Shown here: positions 11,035 to 14,495 of the stretch, piece by piece
How the letters are laid out: every line of letters begins with the position of its first letter
How positions within the stretch are numbered: position 1 is the stretch's first letter
DNA from: Streptococcus suis
GTDB taxonomy: Bacteria > Bacillota > Bacilli > Lactobacillales > Streptococcaceae
Reading direction: 5' to 3'
NCBI RefSeq assembly: GCF_002960445.1
Contig: NZ_POJD01000142.1
Coordinates: 62,001 to 126,000, forward strand
Length of the DNA: 64,000 nt
The notes under the pieces: model-generated
The model's input: only the letters and a program-made list of their open reading frames with translations
Databases searched by the model: none
What the model was told of the DNA's origin: nothing
Made by a program: the position numbers and the translations under genes

Positions 11035-12534
11035 GCTTAATCTGTATATATTTTGGCAGACTTCCTTTAGAAAACGTCGGTCGTGTGATACGCATACTAG
11101 GCCACCTGGATAGTCGGCAAATAACTGACGTATATAAGGCTGAGAAGTAGGAGAGAAGTTGCGGCTTGGTTCATCTAATAAGAGAAAATTGGCTTGATTA
11201 AGAACCATTTTTAACAAGAGTAACTTGGCTTTTTGTCCCCCAGAAAGTTCACAGATCTTGTGATGAACTTCTTGTCGTGTAAACTGTAGGCTAGCTAGAT
11301 GGGTTAAGATAAGTTGTTCCTGTTCACGATTGCCATTTTCTAATAAAAAATCAAGTGGAGTTTTAGACTCATCAAGGATTTCTGAATAGTGCTGAGGCAT
11401 ATAACCTAAGTTTATATCTGTACGCTTCTTGAGTGCTTGATAGATAGTCTTTAGAAAGCTGGATTTACCAATTCCATTCGGGCCAATTATACCAATCTTA
11501 TCTTGCCCATTTATGTTGAAATGGATATTGCTAACTAATTGTCGTTCTTCAACATTCAATTGGAAGTTTTCTAAGTGAAGTACTTGCTTTCCAGCTGGTA
11601 ATGGTGAAATGTCTGAGAAGAAGAGGGAAATGGCATCTTCATGAAAAGGAACTTGTGTGAGATTTTCCTTCATTCTTTCATAGCGTTTTTCACGTGAGAG
11701 AACATTTTTCATTTTCTTAGCAATGAGCCGTCCCATAGTAGCATCATGCGTATTGAGCAAGGTATTGCGCACCTGTGATTTTTGTCGTAGGTGCTTATTC
11801 ATGGCTTTGTCAAATTCTTTTTGATCATTCCGAGCCTGTTGGACCTGCTTCTGATAAGCTTGTTGTCGCTTTTGTGCGTAGTCTTGATAGTCCAATTCTT
11901 CAACTTTGGTTTGAGCAAGTGTTTTCTTTTTAACCGACTCTAGGTGAATGATTTTTGTGGCTGTTTTACTGAGGAAGTCTTCATCGTGGGAAACAAATAG
12001 AATGGTTTTAGGGCTCGTGATGACATAGTTTTCAAGCCAAAGTAAGGTATCTAAATCCAAGTCATTGGACGGCTCATCCAGAAAAATAATATCAGATGGA
12101 GTTGCTAGAGATTTGATTAACTGAATTTTTAGTTTTTCACCACCTGACAGGCTTCCAATCAATTGCTGGCTGGAAAAACGTACGCTGTCAAACTGGAGCT
12201 GGTCAGCATAGAGGTAGAGTAGACCGTAATCAATATCACTGTCCATATCTCCAAAGAAGTAGTCGTTCAAGGTCAGCTTTGCTATTTCTAGTGGAAGACT
12301 TTGGGGAATATAGACTGGTGAGTGAAAATATCGGTGAATACTGCCTGATTGAAGCAGGTAGTTGGCGACAAGTGTTGAATCCATCAAGGTTAGTAATAGA
12401 CTGGATTTTCCATTTCCTTCTTCGCCGATGATGGCTATTTTATCGCCGAGGTTGACAATGAGGTTTAGGTCCTGAACCAAGGTTCTTAAATCTTTTTGAT
12501 GGTCGAGAGATAAATGTTGAGTGCTTAGTAGCAT
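11005..12534 (-). CDS. ABC-F family ATPase (ribosomal-protection type)
   Basis: The 509-residue protein has two ABC domains and no membrane segments. Domain 1 has Walker A GEEGNGKSSLL, signature LSGGEKLKIQL and Walker B FLDEPSNDLDL. Domain 2 has GPNGIGKSSFL, LSGGQKAKLLLLK and LLLDEPSRNFSPTS. A charged, helical linker of roughly 80 residues (about 210-300) joins them, as in ABC-F proteins that enter the ribosomal E site. Members with this short two-domain form (Lsa, Vga, Msr types) protect ribosomes from lincosamides, pleuromutilins, streptogramin A or macrolides. The upstream attenuator with a tiny leader peptide supports an antibiotic-response role. Resistance itself is inferred, and housekeeping ABC-F proteins look similar. 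Confidence 0.88.
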   Translation of the reverse strand: MLLSTQHLSLDHQKDLRTLVQDLNLIVNLGDKIAIIGEEGNGKSSLLLTLMDSTLVANYLLQSGSIHRYFHSPVYIPQSLPLEIAKLTLNDYFFGDMDSDIDYGLLYLYADQLQFDSVRFSSQQLIGSLSGGEKLKIQLIKSLATPSDIIFLDEPSNDLDLDTLLWLENYVITSPKTILFVSHDEDFLSKTATKIIHLESVKKKTLAQTKVEELDYQDYAQKRQQAYQKQVQQARNDQKEFDKAMNKHLRQKSQVRNTLLNTHDATMGRLIAKKMKNVLSREKRYERMKENLTQVPFHEDAISLFFSDISPLPAGKQVLHLENFQLNVEERQLVSNIHFNINGQDKIGIIGPNGIGKSSFLKTIYQALKKRTDINLGYMPQHYSEILDESKTPLDFLLENGNREQEQLILTHLASLQFTRQEVHHKICELSGGQKAKLLLLKMVLNQANFLLLDEPSRNFSPTSQPYIRQLFADYPGGLVCVSHDRRFLKEVCQNIYRLSEKGLDQVQI

Positions 12535-12556: not shown

Positions 12557-12581
12557 ACACACTACCTATTTAGTAGTGTGT
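12557..12581 (-). terminator. Attenuator terminator in front of the ABC-F gene
   Basis: Read on the minus strand, a nine-base-pair stem (CACACTAC with GTAGTGTG plus one further A-T pair) and a seven-base loop are followed by a T run. This lies only about 25 bases before the ABC-F start codon. It would stop transcription before the gene unless the competing pairing with 12645-12656 forms. Confidence 0.8.
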
Positions 12582-12644
12582 CGAAATCTGCTCAAAAAGA
12601 CCCTATTCATGGAATAGAGAAACAGAAAAATGGACGCAAGAAAA

Positions 12645-12656
12645 CTACTAAATAAG
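12645..12656 (-). promoter_or_regulatory. Antiterminator arm complementary to the ABC-F terminator
   Basis: On the minus strand CTTATTTAGTAG contains ten bases (TATTTAGTAG) exactly complementary to CTACTAAATA, the left arm and loop of the terminator at 12557-12581. Its pairing would prevent the terminator. A nearby AAACTA, just after the leader stop, can pair with TAGTTT at the edge of this arm, which offers a third fold that a stalled ribosome could break. Confidence 0.7.
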
Positions 12657-12675
12657 CATAGAACTTAGTTTGAGT

Positions 12676-12693
12676 TTACTTCTTATTGTCCAT
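12676..12693 (-). CDS. Leader peptide MDNKK of the ABC-F attenuator
   Basis: A five-codon frame, ATG GAC AAT AAG AAG TAA, follows AGGGAG at proper spacing. It lies between a strong promoter and the terminator/antiterminator pair. Short leader frames of this kind sense ribosome-stalling antibiotics upstream of ABC-F and erm genes. Its translation is inferred from position and the ribosome-binding site. Confidence 0.65.
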   Translation of the reverse strand: MDNKK

Positions 12694-12724
12694 TTCTCCC
12701 TACCTCGCTTGCTATATTTGTTTT

Positions 12725-12753
12725 AGTATAGCATATCGATAAAAACTTGTCAA
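12725..12753 (-). promoter_or_regulatory. Promoter of the ABC-F leader
   Basis: On the minus strand TTGACA (12753-12748), a 17-base spacer and TATACT (12730-12725) form a near-consensus promoter. Transcripts would begin about 25 bases before the leader peptide start. Confidence 0.85.
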
Positions 12754-12911: not shown

Positions 12912-14495
12912 ATGAAAAATGTTATGGATATTTTATTGAGTGTTTTTCCAATTGTTCTCTTGATATTTTTGATGATCAAGATGCGTTTGGCAGCCAGTTA
13001 TGCCTTGCCAGCGATTGCAGGCTTGGTTTATTTGATTTTGTTGGTGTATTTTAAGACGGATTTTGCCTTGTTAAATTCAGGCTTGGTCACAGGTTTTTGG
13101 GCTACCCTAACGCCGATAACAGTGATTATGGGAGCAGTGCTATTTAATAACTTTCAACGAAAAACAGGAAACCAAGCTATCATCAACAGATGGATGTCTA
13201 GTTTGACACCCAATCCTGTTGCTCAGATGATGATTATCGGTTATGCCTTCGCCTTCATGATTGAAGGGGCATCTGGTTTTGGAACTCCCGCAGCAATTGC
13301 AGCCCCCATCTTAATTGCTTTGGGATTTGAACCCATCAAGGTTGTGCTAGCAGTATTGATTTTTAATTCGATTCCTGTATCTTTTGGTGCTGTCGGAACG
13401 CCGACTTGGTTTGGATTTGGTTCTTTAGGTTTGACCAGTCAGCAGATTGGAGAGCTAGGCTTAAAGGCAGCTCTAATTCATTTAACCGCAGGCTTGCTCA
13501 TTCCCTTGATTGCCCTTCGTTATGTCTTTTCTTGGTCACAAATCAAGGCCAATCTGCTCTATATTTATTTGACAGTCTTTGCTTGCGCCTTGCCCATGAC
13601 CCTTTTGGCCACTATCAACTATGAATTCCCATCTCTTTTGGGAGGAGCGATCGGTTTTCTTATTTCAATCTGGTTAGCCAAAAAACAGATTGGCTTGAAT
13701 TCGGTCGAAAACAAGAAAAATTTTGTGGAACAAGTAACAGCTAAAGAACTCTTTATGGCTACTCTTCCCTTGATTTGCTTGGTTTTGATACTGGTGATAA
13801 CCCGTGTTCCTCAGCTAGGGATTAAAGGCCTGATGAGAACGGATGCCCTGCTTTTAAGTACAGATATTGGCTTTGCTAAGCTAGAAATTACAAAGGCTCT
13901 GAAATTCACATTAGCCAATGTATTTGGTACTAGCTCGACAGAATCTTATGAATTGCTTTACGCACCAGCATTCATTCCTTTCTTCCTCATTGTGTTGACC
14001 CTATCGAGCCTCTATCCGAGTATGAAAGGTCAAGTCTGGAAGATGATTGGGCAAACCGCCAAACAAGTGTCGGAACCCTTCTTTGCCCTTCTAGGTGGTG
14101 TGACCATGGTAAAATTCATGCTACTTAATGGTGATCAGTCTATGGTATCCATTATCGGGATGTCCTTGGCAGCAGCAACTGGTCCATATTGGGGTCTCTT
14201 CGCTTCCTATCTAGGTGCCATTGGAGCCTTCTTCTCGGGTTCTGCGACAATTTCCAATCTCATTTTTGGAGGTGTTCAACAATCCATCGCCACGCAAACG
14301 GGTCTGAATATGACTAGCATTTTGGCTATGCAGTCTGTTGGAGGAGCAATGGGGAATATGACCTGTGTCAACAATATCATTGCGGCCTCATCCGTTTCCG
14401 GAGTGCGTCGTCAAGAAGGATTTATCATGCAGAAAACTGCCGTGCCTATGTTTATCTACGGAATCATTACGGCTTTAGTTGGATTGTTTTTATAA
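12912..14495 (+). CDS. lctP: L-lactate permease (LctP/LldP family)
   Basis: This 527-residue integral membrane protein has about a dozen hydrophobic helices and the LctP family segments FMIEGASGFGTPAAIAAPIL, TPTWFGFGSLGL and GSATISNLIFGG. It imports or exports lactate (or glycolate) with protons. The ATG at 12912 begins the longest frame, but AAGGA ends only one base before it. The in-frame ATG at 12924 (MDILLSVFPIVL) is a plausible alternative start. A TATAAT at 12853-12858 may be its -10. It is monocistronic and diverges from the ABC-F leader. Confidence 0.92.
   Translation: MKNVMDILLSVFPIVLLIFLMIKMRLAASYALPAIAGLVYLILLVYFKTDFALLNSGLVTGFWATLTPITVIMGAVLFNNFQRKTGNQAIINRWMSSLTPNPVAQMMIIGYAFAFMIEGASGFGTPAAIAAPILIALGFEPIKVVLAVLIFNSIPVSFGAVGTPTWFGFGSLGLTSQQIGELGLKAALIHLTAGLLIPLIALRYVFSWSQIKANLLYIYLTVFACALPMTLLATINYEFPSLLGGAIGFLISIWLAKKQIGLNSVENKKNFVEQVTAKELFMATLPLICLVLILVITRVPQLGIKGLMRTDALLLSTDIGFAKLEITKALKFTLANVFGTSSTESYELLYAPAFIPFFLIVLTLSSLYPSMKGQVWKMIGQTAKQVSEPFFALLGGVTMVKFMLLNGDQSMVSIIGMSLAAATGPYWGLFASYLGAIGAFFSGSATISNLIFGGVQQSIATQTGLNMTSILAMQSVGGAMGNMTCVNNIIAASSVSGVRRQEGFIMQKTAVPMFIYGIITALVGLFL

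Follow-up and report, generated by a model that had tools for sequence, protein, structure and literature searches.

The lmo0919 leader of Listeria monocytogenes reportedly carries a short leader frame (uORF) of only three residues, and the gene, the subject of a Term-seq paper of 2016, is reported to be induced by lincomycin. The accessible text of PMC12421871 counts lmo0919/vgaL among the ABC-F genes that are under ribosome-mediated attenuation. For cplR of C. difficile, the part of PMC10201436 available to us describes reporters in which the uORF start codon, the terminator stem, or the poly-U tract was mutated and which were challenged with lincomycin. The same part gives consensus uORFs of a size similar to those described below, i.e., MIN for VmlR, MAGN for LsaA, MR[I/M] for CplR, and MK[L/Q] for VmlR2.

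The leader discussed here lies upstream of an ABC-F gene of Streptococcus suis, in a 64-kb stretch of DNA that we call the window. We consider it likely that this leader is an attenuator of the cplR/vmlR/vgaL kind, one that couples transcription to translation and responds to stalled ribosomes. The features on which this reading rests are collected in Table 1.

Table 1. Features of the leader and of the gene that follows it, numbered from the first base of the window
Feature	Position	Strand	Remarks
Sigma-70 promoter, TTGACA-17 nt-TATACT	12753-12725	minus	11/12 consensus; TG preceding the -10
Shine-Dalgarno (SD)-like GAGGTAGGGAG of the leader frame	12706-12696	minus	from sequence
Leader uORF ATGGACAATAAGAAGTAA, ATG GAC AAT AAG AAG TAA (MDNKK)	12693-12676	minus	
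Arm 1 of the predicted 5' hairpin (leader SD plus uORF)	12706-12676	minus	
Predicted antiterminator arm CTTATTTAGTAG	12656-12645	minus	12/12 pairs with terminator 5' arm and loop
Arm 2, predicted partner of SD-AUG-uORF (anti-antiterminator hairpin 1:2)	12643-12617	minus	from folding and swap test
T1, weaker terminator-like hairpin and T run	12619-12594	minus	stem 12619-12601, 8 pairs, 3 GC
Intrinsic terminator GACACACTACT-AAATA-GGTAGTGTGTT and T tract	12582-12552	minus	stem 12582-12556, 11 pairs
SD AAGGAGG of the ABC-F gene	12545-12539	minus	3' of the terminator
ABC-F gene (P0001, 509 aa)	12534-11005	minus	ATG at 12534

The original prediction had described, in this order on the minus strand, a near-perfect promoter, a ribosome-binding site with an MDNKK frame, and an antiterminator arm and terminator ahead of the ABC-F gene, and each of these is found where it was placed. 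It had also claimed a ten-base match between the antiterminator and the terminator arm and loop; against the 5' arm and loop (12582-12567 plus the next base) we counted 10 contiguous Watson-Crick pairs, and 12 of 12 are reached by adding one flanking U-G and one C-G pair. Taken alone, this complementarity is only modestly unusual in this single sequence, being equaled by 7 of 300 mononucleotide shuffles. The promoter is the sole promoter-like site between 10900 and 13100, where shuffles give 5.6 sites on average, and it is therefore not significant by itself. The nearest long frame upstream of it starts at 12912 on the opposite strand, so the promoter seems to be part of the ABC-F unit.

The site might be a chance association of an ordinary promoter, a short frame without meaning, and the leftover terminator of another unit, and promoter-like matches are indeed common, with this region holding fewer of them than chance gives. 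The composite arrangement speaks against this: defined, by criteria written only after the site had been seen, as a promoter, an SD with a frame of 3 to 7 codons, a terminator, and an exact 10-nt complement, it occurs once on both strands of the 64-kb window, at this site, and in none of 40 random windows generated from a first-order Markov model. Coincidence is contradicted as well by the swap test, by the pairing in 77 of 94 leaders, and by the conservation in other genomes, all described below, and we give it next to no weight.

Folding of the leader revealed a long 5' hairpin, absent from the original prediction, in which arm 1 pairs with arm 2 and the antiterminator sits in the upper part. 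The 186-nt leader folds with -60.4 kcal/mol (z = -5.5), and none of 200 shuffles was as stable. In 15 of the 16 leaders examined, the 5' hairpin exceeded its shuffles in stability (z from -2.2 to -5.6); in L036 it did not (z of 0.1). The same hairpin plan recurs in the S. suis, W153-type S. suis, sanguinis, parasanguinis, massiliensis, and mitis/pneumoniae lineages. Among 46 aligned leaders, the GAGGTA of the leader SD is invariant and the next G-rich block is nearly so, while the bases of the SD-AUG spacer vary in several lineages and their arm 2 partners, judged by eye, vary to match. With the antiterminator hidden in hairpin 1:2, a stalled ribosome would matter.

This was borne out in silico when a ribosome footprint, from -20 to +15 around the AUG, was held single-stranded in transcripts ending before the 3' arm of the terminator. 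The antiterminator then had a probability of >0.5 in 49 of 51 leaders, compared to 1 of 51 with the footprint free; many of these leaders are closely related and so are not independent. Control blocks of equal length gave 1 of 51 when placed upstream and 0 of 51 just before the terminator. The 51 leaders exclude five duplicates (L006, L007, L012, L019, and L022) and L031, in which the terminator was misfound; the script pattern found no uORF in L037, L074, and L080 and no terminator in L061.

Two further results of the folding place demands on the model. The terminator stem has a probability of 0.95 in the free full-length leader of the window, and at full-length equilibrium with a ribosome on the uORF the terminator still wins in many leaders: its probability is 0.75 in the window leader and >0.95 in the sanguinis and parasanguinis leaders even with a stalled ribosome. 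Because the terminator dominates at full-length equilibrium, the switch would need cotranscriptional folding. In silico, arm 1 is covered as well by a ribosome at the stop codon as by one at the AUG, and since a terminating ribosome would thus free the antiterminator just as a stalled one does, the model also needs a difference in dwell time.

The proposed sequence of events is as follows. Transcription of the leader would start at its own promoter, whereupon a ribosome would load on the very short uORF. When drug is absent, the ribosome would finish and leave at once, arm 1 would pair with arm 2 and hide the antiterminator, and RNA polymerase would stop at the terminator of the free leader, so that a short RNA results. 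If a drug froze the ribosome at the start codon or just past it, arm 1 would stay covered; the likeliest candidates are a pleuromutilin, a lincosamide, or a streptogramin A, the classes to which, by analogy with the described systems, the signal probably belongs. The freed antiterminator could then base-pair with the terminator's 5' arm and loop, so that transcription would continue into the ABC-F gene, the product of which probably acts on the drug-stalled ribosome.

The elements of the switch are found well beyond the window. A terminator was detected in 94 of the 96 leaders with a script-detected uORF, and in 77 of these 94 the terminator arm can pair with at least 11 of the 12 bases in an antiterminator window, a level reached by 2.1% of mononucleotide shuffles. 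The remaining 17 have fewer than 11 of 12 pairs. A wider search improved the result for L150, L145, L157, L161, and L163 (3, 15, 11, 11, and 9 of 200 shuffles equal, respectively) and left seven of the 17 unremarkable (L146, L147, L152, L154, L156, L162, and L189, with 44 to 200 of 200 shuffles equal). In this search L191 was void, its fragment being too short, and the results for L190, L195, L198, L199, L200, and L202 were printed only.

Covariation between lineages was assessed by swapping arms, because MAFFT did not keep the arms of all lineages in register; two such alignments, A1 and A2, were rejected for pair counts and for a covariance model. A1 had omitted the five duplicates, the insert-bearing L018, L061, and five identical stretches. 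The swap test covered 47 leaders of 7 lineages, with no more than three leaders per lineage taken for the permutation. Arm 1 pairs with its own arm 2 at a mean of -15.3 kcal/mol compared to -11.6 kcal/mol with swapped partners (3 of 5040 permutations as good), and the antiterminator pairs with its own terminator at -11.8 compared to -8.1 kcal/mol (4 of 5040). The pairing of the post-stop segment with the antiterminator co-varies less clearly (122 of 5040). The W153-type leaders and L036 run against the trend, in that their arm 1 pairs better with some foreign arm 2. Individual two-sided replacements are seen in L018 (one A-U to G-C), in L020/L027 (three in L020, plus one mismatch there), and, by eye and with one bulge, in L043; the pair table behind them omits the same duplicates, and its L031 row is spurious. 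Sequence comparison thus reveals, in many Streptococcus genomes, the parts, the mutually exclusive predicted helices, their covariation, and their link to the ABC-F gene, and at this level attenuation is well supported. The attenuator interpretation of the original prediction has therefore held up, since every part is present and the antiterminator/terminator alternative has been kept across lineages with compensating changes.

Some leaders carry additional sequence. In L018 (1660-1800), an insert of about 125 bases separates the uORF from its antiterminator, which is itself intact; the coupling should be weakened or changed by this insert, which makes L018 a natural experiment. Ten leaders, several of them from the mitis group (L047, L049, L051-L055, L059, L060, and L062), have repeat-like insertions between antiterminator and terminator, which we take to be BOX-like; the terminator in these leaders lies about 200 to 310 bases past the uORF, and both arms are kept.

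At the gathering score, Rfam placed no family in the window leader, and RF02436 (SpF43) had no match in the window's own genome at an E value of 0.01; elsewhere the same window holds an L21 leader (RF00559; 60399-60469, plus strand) and three tRNA genes. When the threshold was loosened, the window leader scored 19.3 bits against RF02436 over the full length of the model (E = 0.38), under the gathering score of 70. This chance-like row gained meaning because the stretch upstream of the pneumococcal orthologue (L057) scored 117.2 bits; that of the parasanguinis orthologue scored 74.1. RF02436 matches were found in 115 of 197 Streptococcus genomes (E ≤ 0.01), and a P0001 homologue was found in 167 of the 197 (E ≤ 1e-90). 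Listed RF02436 places were available for 111 genomes, and in 106 of them the match lies 95 to 314 bases upstream of the ABC-F gene on the same strand. The five exceptions comprise two contig breaks (G080 and G028) and three genomes without a listed gene row; a blast look at two of the latter put the ABC-F gene downstream in G145 (L128) and in G082 (L134; reading frame split), and G185 is the third.

RF02436 is typed by Rfam as "Gene; sRNA," and pneumococcal studies have filed the RNA in the same way. In the portions of these sources that were accessible, F43 lies between SP1281 and SP1282 in TIGR4 and is confirmed by Northern blotting; srf-19 (D39V 1170746-1170923, 178 nt) is an "ncRNA of unknown function" with the remark "alternative terminator present"; and F43/Spd_sr63 is putative sRNA M52 in a 2025 paper. 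Hairpins similar to the T-rich T1 of the window were seen by eye in other leaders, and the srf-19 remark likewise concerns an alternative terminator. Placed on L057, srf-19 begins at the sixth base past the -10 and closes with the final T of the terminator. This mapping, which uses the D39 offset (1171761 to 1172219) and the D39 coordinates of F43, with srf-19 starting one base before F43, assumes no indels because L057 is strain 19F, not D39. The reported srf-19 ends, mapped on another strain, thus appear to fit the predicted promoter and terminator.

The leader RNA might instead be mainly a trans-acting small RNA, with a terminator that just ends it and an ABC-F gene that follows incidentally, and the Northern confirmation of F43 in TIGR4, its place in a deletion set (as far as the accessible text goes), and the ncRNA or sRNA label given to it by the srf-19, M52, and Rfam entries would all agree with this. 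A terminated attenuator, however, is expected to resemble an sRNA. A trans-acting role also leaves unexplained that an SD and uORF are carried in 97 of 99 stretches, that antiterminator and terminator co-vary, and that RF02436 precedes the same gene in 106 of 111 genomes; moreover, according to the part of the source available, sepsis was attenuated in 8 of 15 mutants, and the F43 deletion was not one of these 8. We therefore see very little prospect for a mainly trans-acting RNA, and an attenuator leader is the probable nature of Rfam's SpF43.

Our literature search, which ran outside supplements and most subscription papers, found no paper treating SP_1282/SPD_1137 or F43/srf-19 as a uORF attenuator. 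The leader family, its uncharacterized ABC-F clade, and this reading of SpF43 seem to be new, while the kind of attenuator is already known. In the accessible text of the papers that do touch on the locus, the SPD_1137 protein has a ratio of 1.57 in an unrelated mutant comparison (PMC9234739), SPV_1137 is mentioned once (PMC9812572), and a comparison of two phenotypes of one isolate, S. pneumoniae 307.14, lists an A-to-G substitution located 61 bp ahead of SP_1282 (PMC4243769). The last change probably falls in this leader. The attenuator reading would give a function to an RNA listed as an sRNA by three pneumococcal papers and Rfam and, if true, would change target-prediction work that treats F43/SpF43 as trans-acting.

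Ten relatives outside Streptococcus were inspected by eye. Four of them, from Clostridia MAGs and Caproiciproducens (L063, L064, L066, and L085), have candidate M-R-X frames before a terminator-like hairpin; the Aerococcaceae leaders L061 and L074 have short frames inside strong folds, L067 has none, and the rest allowed no clear call. A plasmid search gave no match of at least 60% identity, its best-covered rows being PoxtA at near 25%. Five leaders of distant streptococci (L150, L153, L155, L158, and L159) have a gene of about 48 codons for a basic peptide between the terminator and the ABC-F gene (an example of its C terminus is HTNQHSKPIISHNLGNR); two of these peptides were scanned and showed no significant Pfam family.

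A uORF of at most seven codons, with predicted translation, was found in 97 of 99 Streptococcus stretches, a nonrandom sample of which 19 were taken by leader similarity, 20 from genomes lacking a listed RF02436 place, and 60 for diversity. The observed range is three to seven codons. Of the two non-positives, L144 has no uORF and the L153 stretch starts inside its candidate; L037 and L144 both have a terminator-like hairpin without a recognizable uORF and are perhaps decayed switches. A single candidate frame was called in 76 of the 99, and 23 needed resolving: 17 were resolved by eye to a three-codon frame after the SD (12 with overlapping or distant spurious frames of other kinds), three others to a frame of seven codons, and L018 to MDSNK.

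The five-codon leader of the original prediction is correct here and in the S. suis group, where the frames (MDNNK, MDSNK, MDNKK, and variants) are rich in Asn and Lys, but the usual form elsewhere has three codons. Three-codon uORFs occur in 77 of the 99 stretches, mostly as M-X-Asn-stop. Codon 3 is Asn, spelled AAC or AAU, in 70 of the 77 and in 14 of the 19 distinct ones, counts that are inflated by relatedness. Lys, His, or Ile replaces it in some leaders. Codon 2 takes seven residues, and the counted frames close with UAA. The W153-type uORF is MDK, that of L184, L186, and L188 has seven codons (MYKKSIA), and MIN is found in two stretches (L150 and L158). Such variants, with three to seven codons, AUG, UUG, or GUG starts, and a variable codon 2, form a natural series for the study of ultrashort-leader sensing.

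The prevalence of Asn at codon 3 (70 of 77) and the Asn/Lys-rich five-codon frames of S. suis would suit a stalling attenuator whose signal is a shortage of charged tRNA for Asn, Lys, or Asp. For attenuation by an amino acid leader, one or two regulatory codons are few. Codon 2, moreover, varies over seven residues, Lys, His, or Ile can stand in place of Asn, and the regulated gene encodes an ABC-F protein, neither biosynthetic nor transport, all of which makes a tRNA signal improbable in our judgment. Base pairing might also fix codon 3. The mean pairing probability is 0.54 for codon 3, 0.42 for codon 2, and 0.73 for the stop codon in the 19 distinct leaders, and base pairing of codon 3 and the stop may account for part of the conservation.

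Within the drug-sensing attenuator, the last sense codon could itself be read, so that the decisive event falls at codon 3 or at termination, for example as a drug-dependent failure of fMet-X-Asn release. Asn is also the last residue in unrelated ABC-F leaders (VmlR MIN and LsaA MAGN), which points this way. The accessible text of PMC10201436 leaves open whether stalling on such uORFs is sequence specific, with the Asn rule itself absent from that text. Against a reading of codon 3, the available part of PMC12421871 places the toeprint stop of another three-codon leader at the start codon, and we regard a decisive role for codon 3 as rather unlikely. If true, it would mean a drug-inducible intrinsic system across Streptococcus, concealed in Rfam as a small RNA.

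P0001 has two ABC_tran matches and no membrane family among nine, and its AlphaFold model has predicted linker helices at residues 216-261 and 265-290 (mean pLDDT of 89.4). With two ABC domains, a predicted long helical linker, and no membrane domain, it has the makeup of an ABC-F ATPase. It scores 294.8 bits against NF000355 (ribosomal protection-like ABC-F), under the cutoff of 380 of a broad model that several other ABC-Fs of its own genome pass. It passes none of the NCBIfam cutoffs for the CplR, Vga, Sal, Msr, Lsa, OptrA, producer-type, or VgaF families; among the best 25 rows, CplR is the best named resistance family, with 227.1 bits against a cutoff of 780, and the others are far lower.

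When Vga(A), PoxtA, OptrA, a protein of the Lsa family, an ABC-F from E. gilvus, and six further ABC-Fs encoded in the same genome were included in a tree, the P0001 clade (Streptococcus, Aerococcaceae, and Clostridia) was separate, with support of 100/100 and a stem of 2.6 changes per site, in a small sample in which several reference branches are long. Two other ABC-F genes of the genome (L104, G000:C123:491-2026, and L106, G000:C288:123448-124794) are represented in this tree; one of the proteins is nearly identical to OptrA (tree distance of 0.004), and one groups with Vga(A) at 100/99. The genome thus appears to carry ABC-Fs of known resistance type besides the chromosomal one.

Comparison with solved proteins gave a different order by sequence and by structure. 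By sequence, YheS and human ABCF1 are the best relatives, followed by VmlR. Foldseek ranked VmlR2, PoxtA, human ABCF1, and VmlR first to fourth, with YheS seventh. The VIA-align Z scores were 36.3 for VmlR2, 35.2 for VgaL, 34.8 for VmlR, 34.7 for VgaA-LC, 33.9 for SalB, 32.9 for LsaA, and 32.6 for EttA, where rows within 1 Z count as tied. The modeled fold is closest to those of ribosome-bound ABC-Fs and is compatible with a resistance-type ABC-F, the kind nearest to it by a small margin.

These comparisons bear on whether the leader is instead a general sensor of slow initiation or ribosome damage, unspecific for drugs, with an ABC-F protein that serves housekeeping translation. A clade apart from the sampled resistance ABC-Fs that passes no named resistance family would be in keeping with this, as would YheS and human ABCF1 as the best solved relatives by sequence and a homologue in 167 of 197 Streptococcus genomes, as a core function would give. 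Yet the six best VIA-align matches are all resistance ABC-Fs, just above EttA, and ultrashort-uORF attenuators are reported, in the accessible parts of PMC10201436 and PMC12421871, for drug-inducible resistance ABC-Fs. We hold a housekeeping role to be unlikely. By analogy with the drug-inducible systems, we infer that the protein would protect ribosomes.

If the drug-sensing attenuator is real, most of the sampled streptococci, including the pneumococcus, have a chromosomal ABC-F gene whose expression responds to drugs. Since this gene matches none of the named resistance families of NCBIfam, strains that typing reports as free of resistance genes might still be induced to tolerate lincosamides or pleuromutilins.

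Of the RNAs already described, SpF43 (RF02436) is the same RNA by homology and position, but it is filed as an sRNA and not as a uORF leader. Like msrD, going by the part of its source available, and like erm, the locus would attenuate through a ribosome that a drug stalls while it translates a leader peptide. Stalling in the msrD and erm leaders depends on a longer nascent chain and on macrolides and is beyond a three-codon frame. The original prediction had likened the locus to inducible ABC-F and erm genes alike; the ABC-F leaders of cplR and vmlR are indeed close, but erm is a poorer model. The vgaL (lmo0919) system differs in its protein, P0001 lying outside the Vga family with 205 bits against a cutoff of 725. 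With vmlR of B. subtilis (uORF MIN), the locus shares attenuation of a chromosomal ABC-F gene through an ultrashort uORF, as described in the accessible text of PMC9226507 and PMC10201436, but the protein is remote (phmmer E value of 3.6e-43), and (p)ppGpp and NusG layers are reported for vmlR in the same texts. The likeness to cplR of C. difficile extends to the layout, a three-codon uORF, MRI, being predicted there within a 5' hairpin and a terminator standing before the ABC-F gene (PMC10201436, in the part available). The uORF is MR[I/M] in cplR and mostly M-X-Asn here, P0001 scores 227 bits against the CplR cutoff of 780, and the cplR terminator, according to the same text, also hides the SD of the gene, which here lies 3' of the terminator. 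Because three codons are too short for macrolide stalling that depends on the nascent chain, cplR and vmlR are closer models for this leader than erm.
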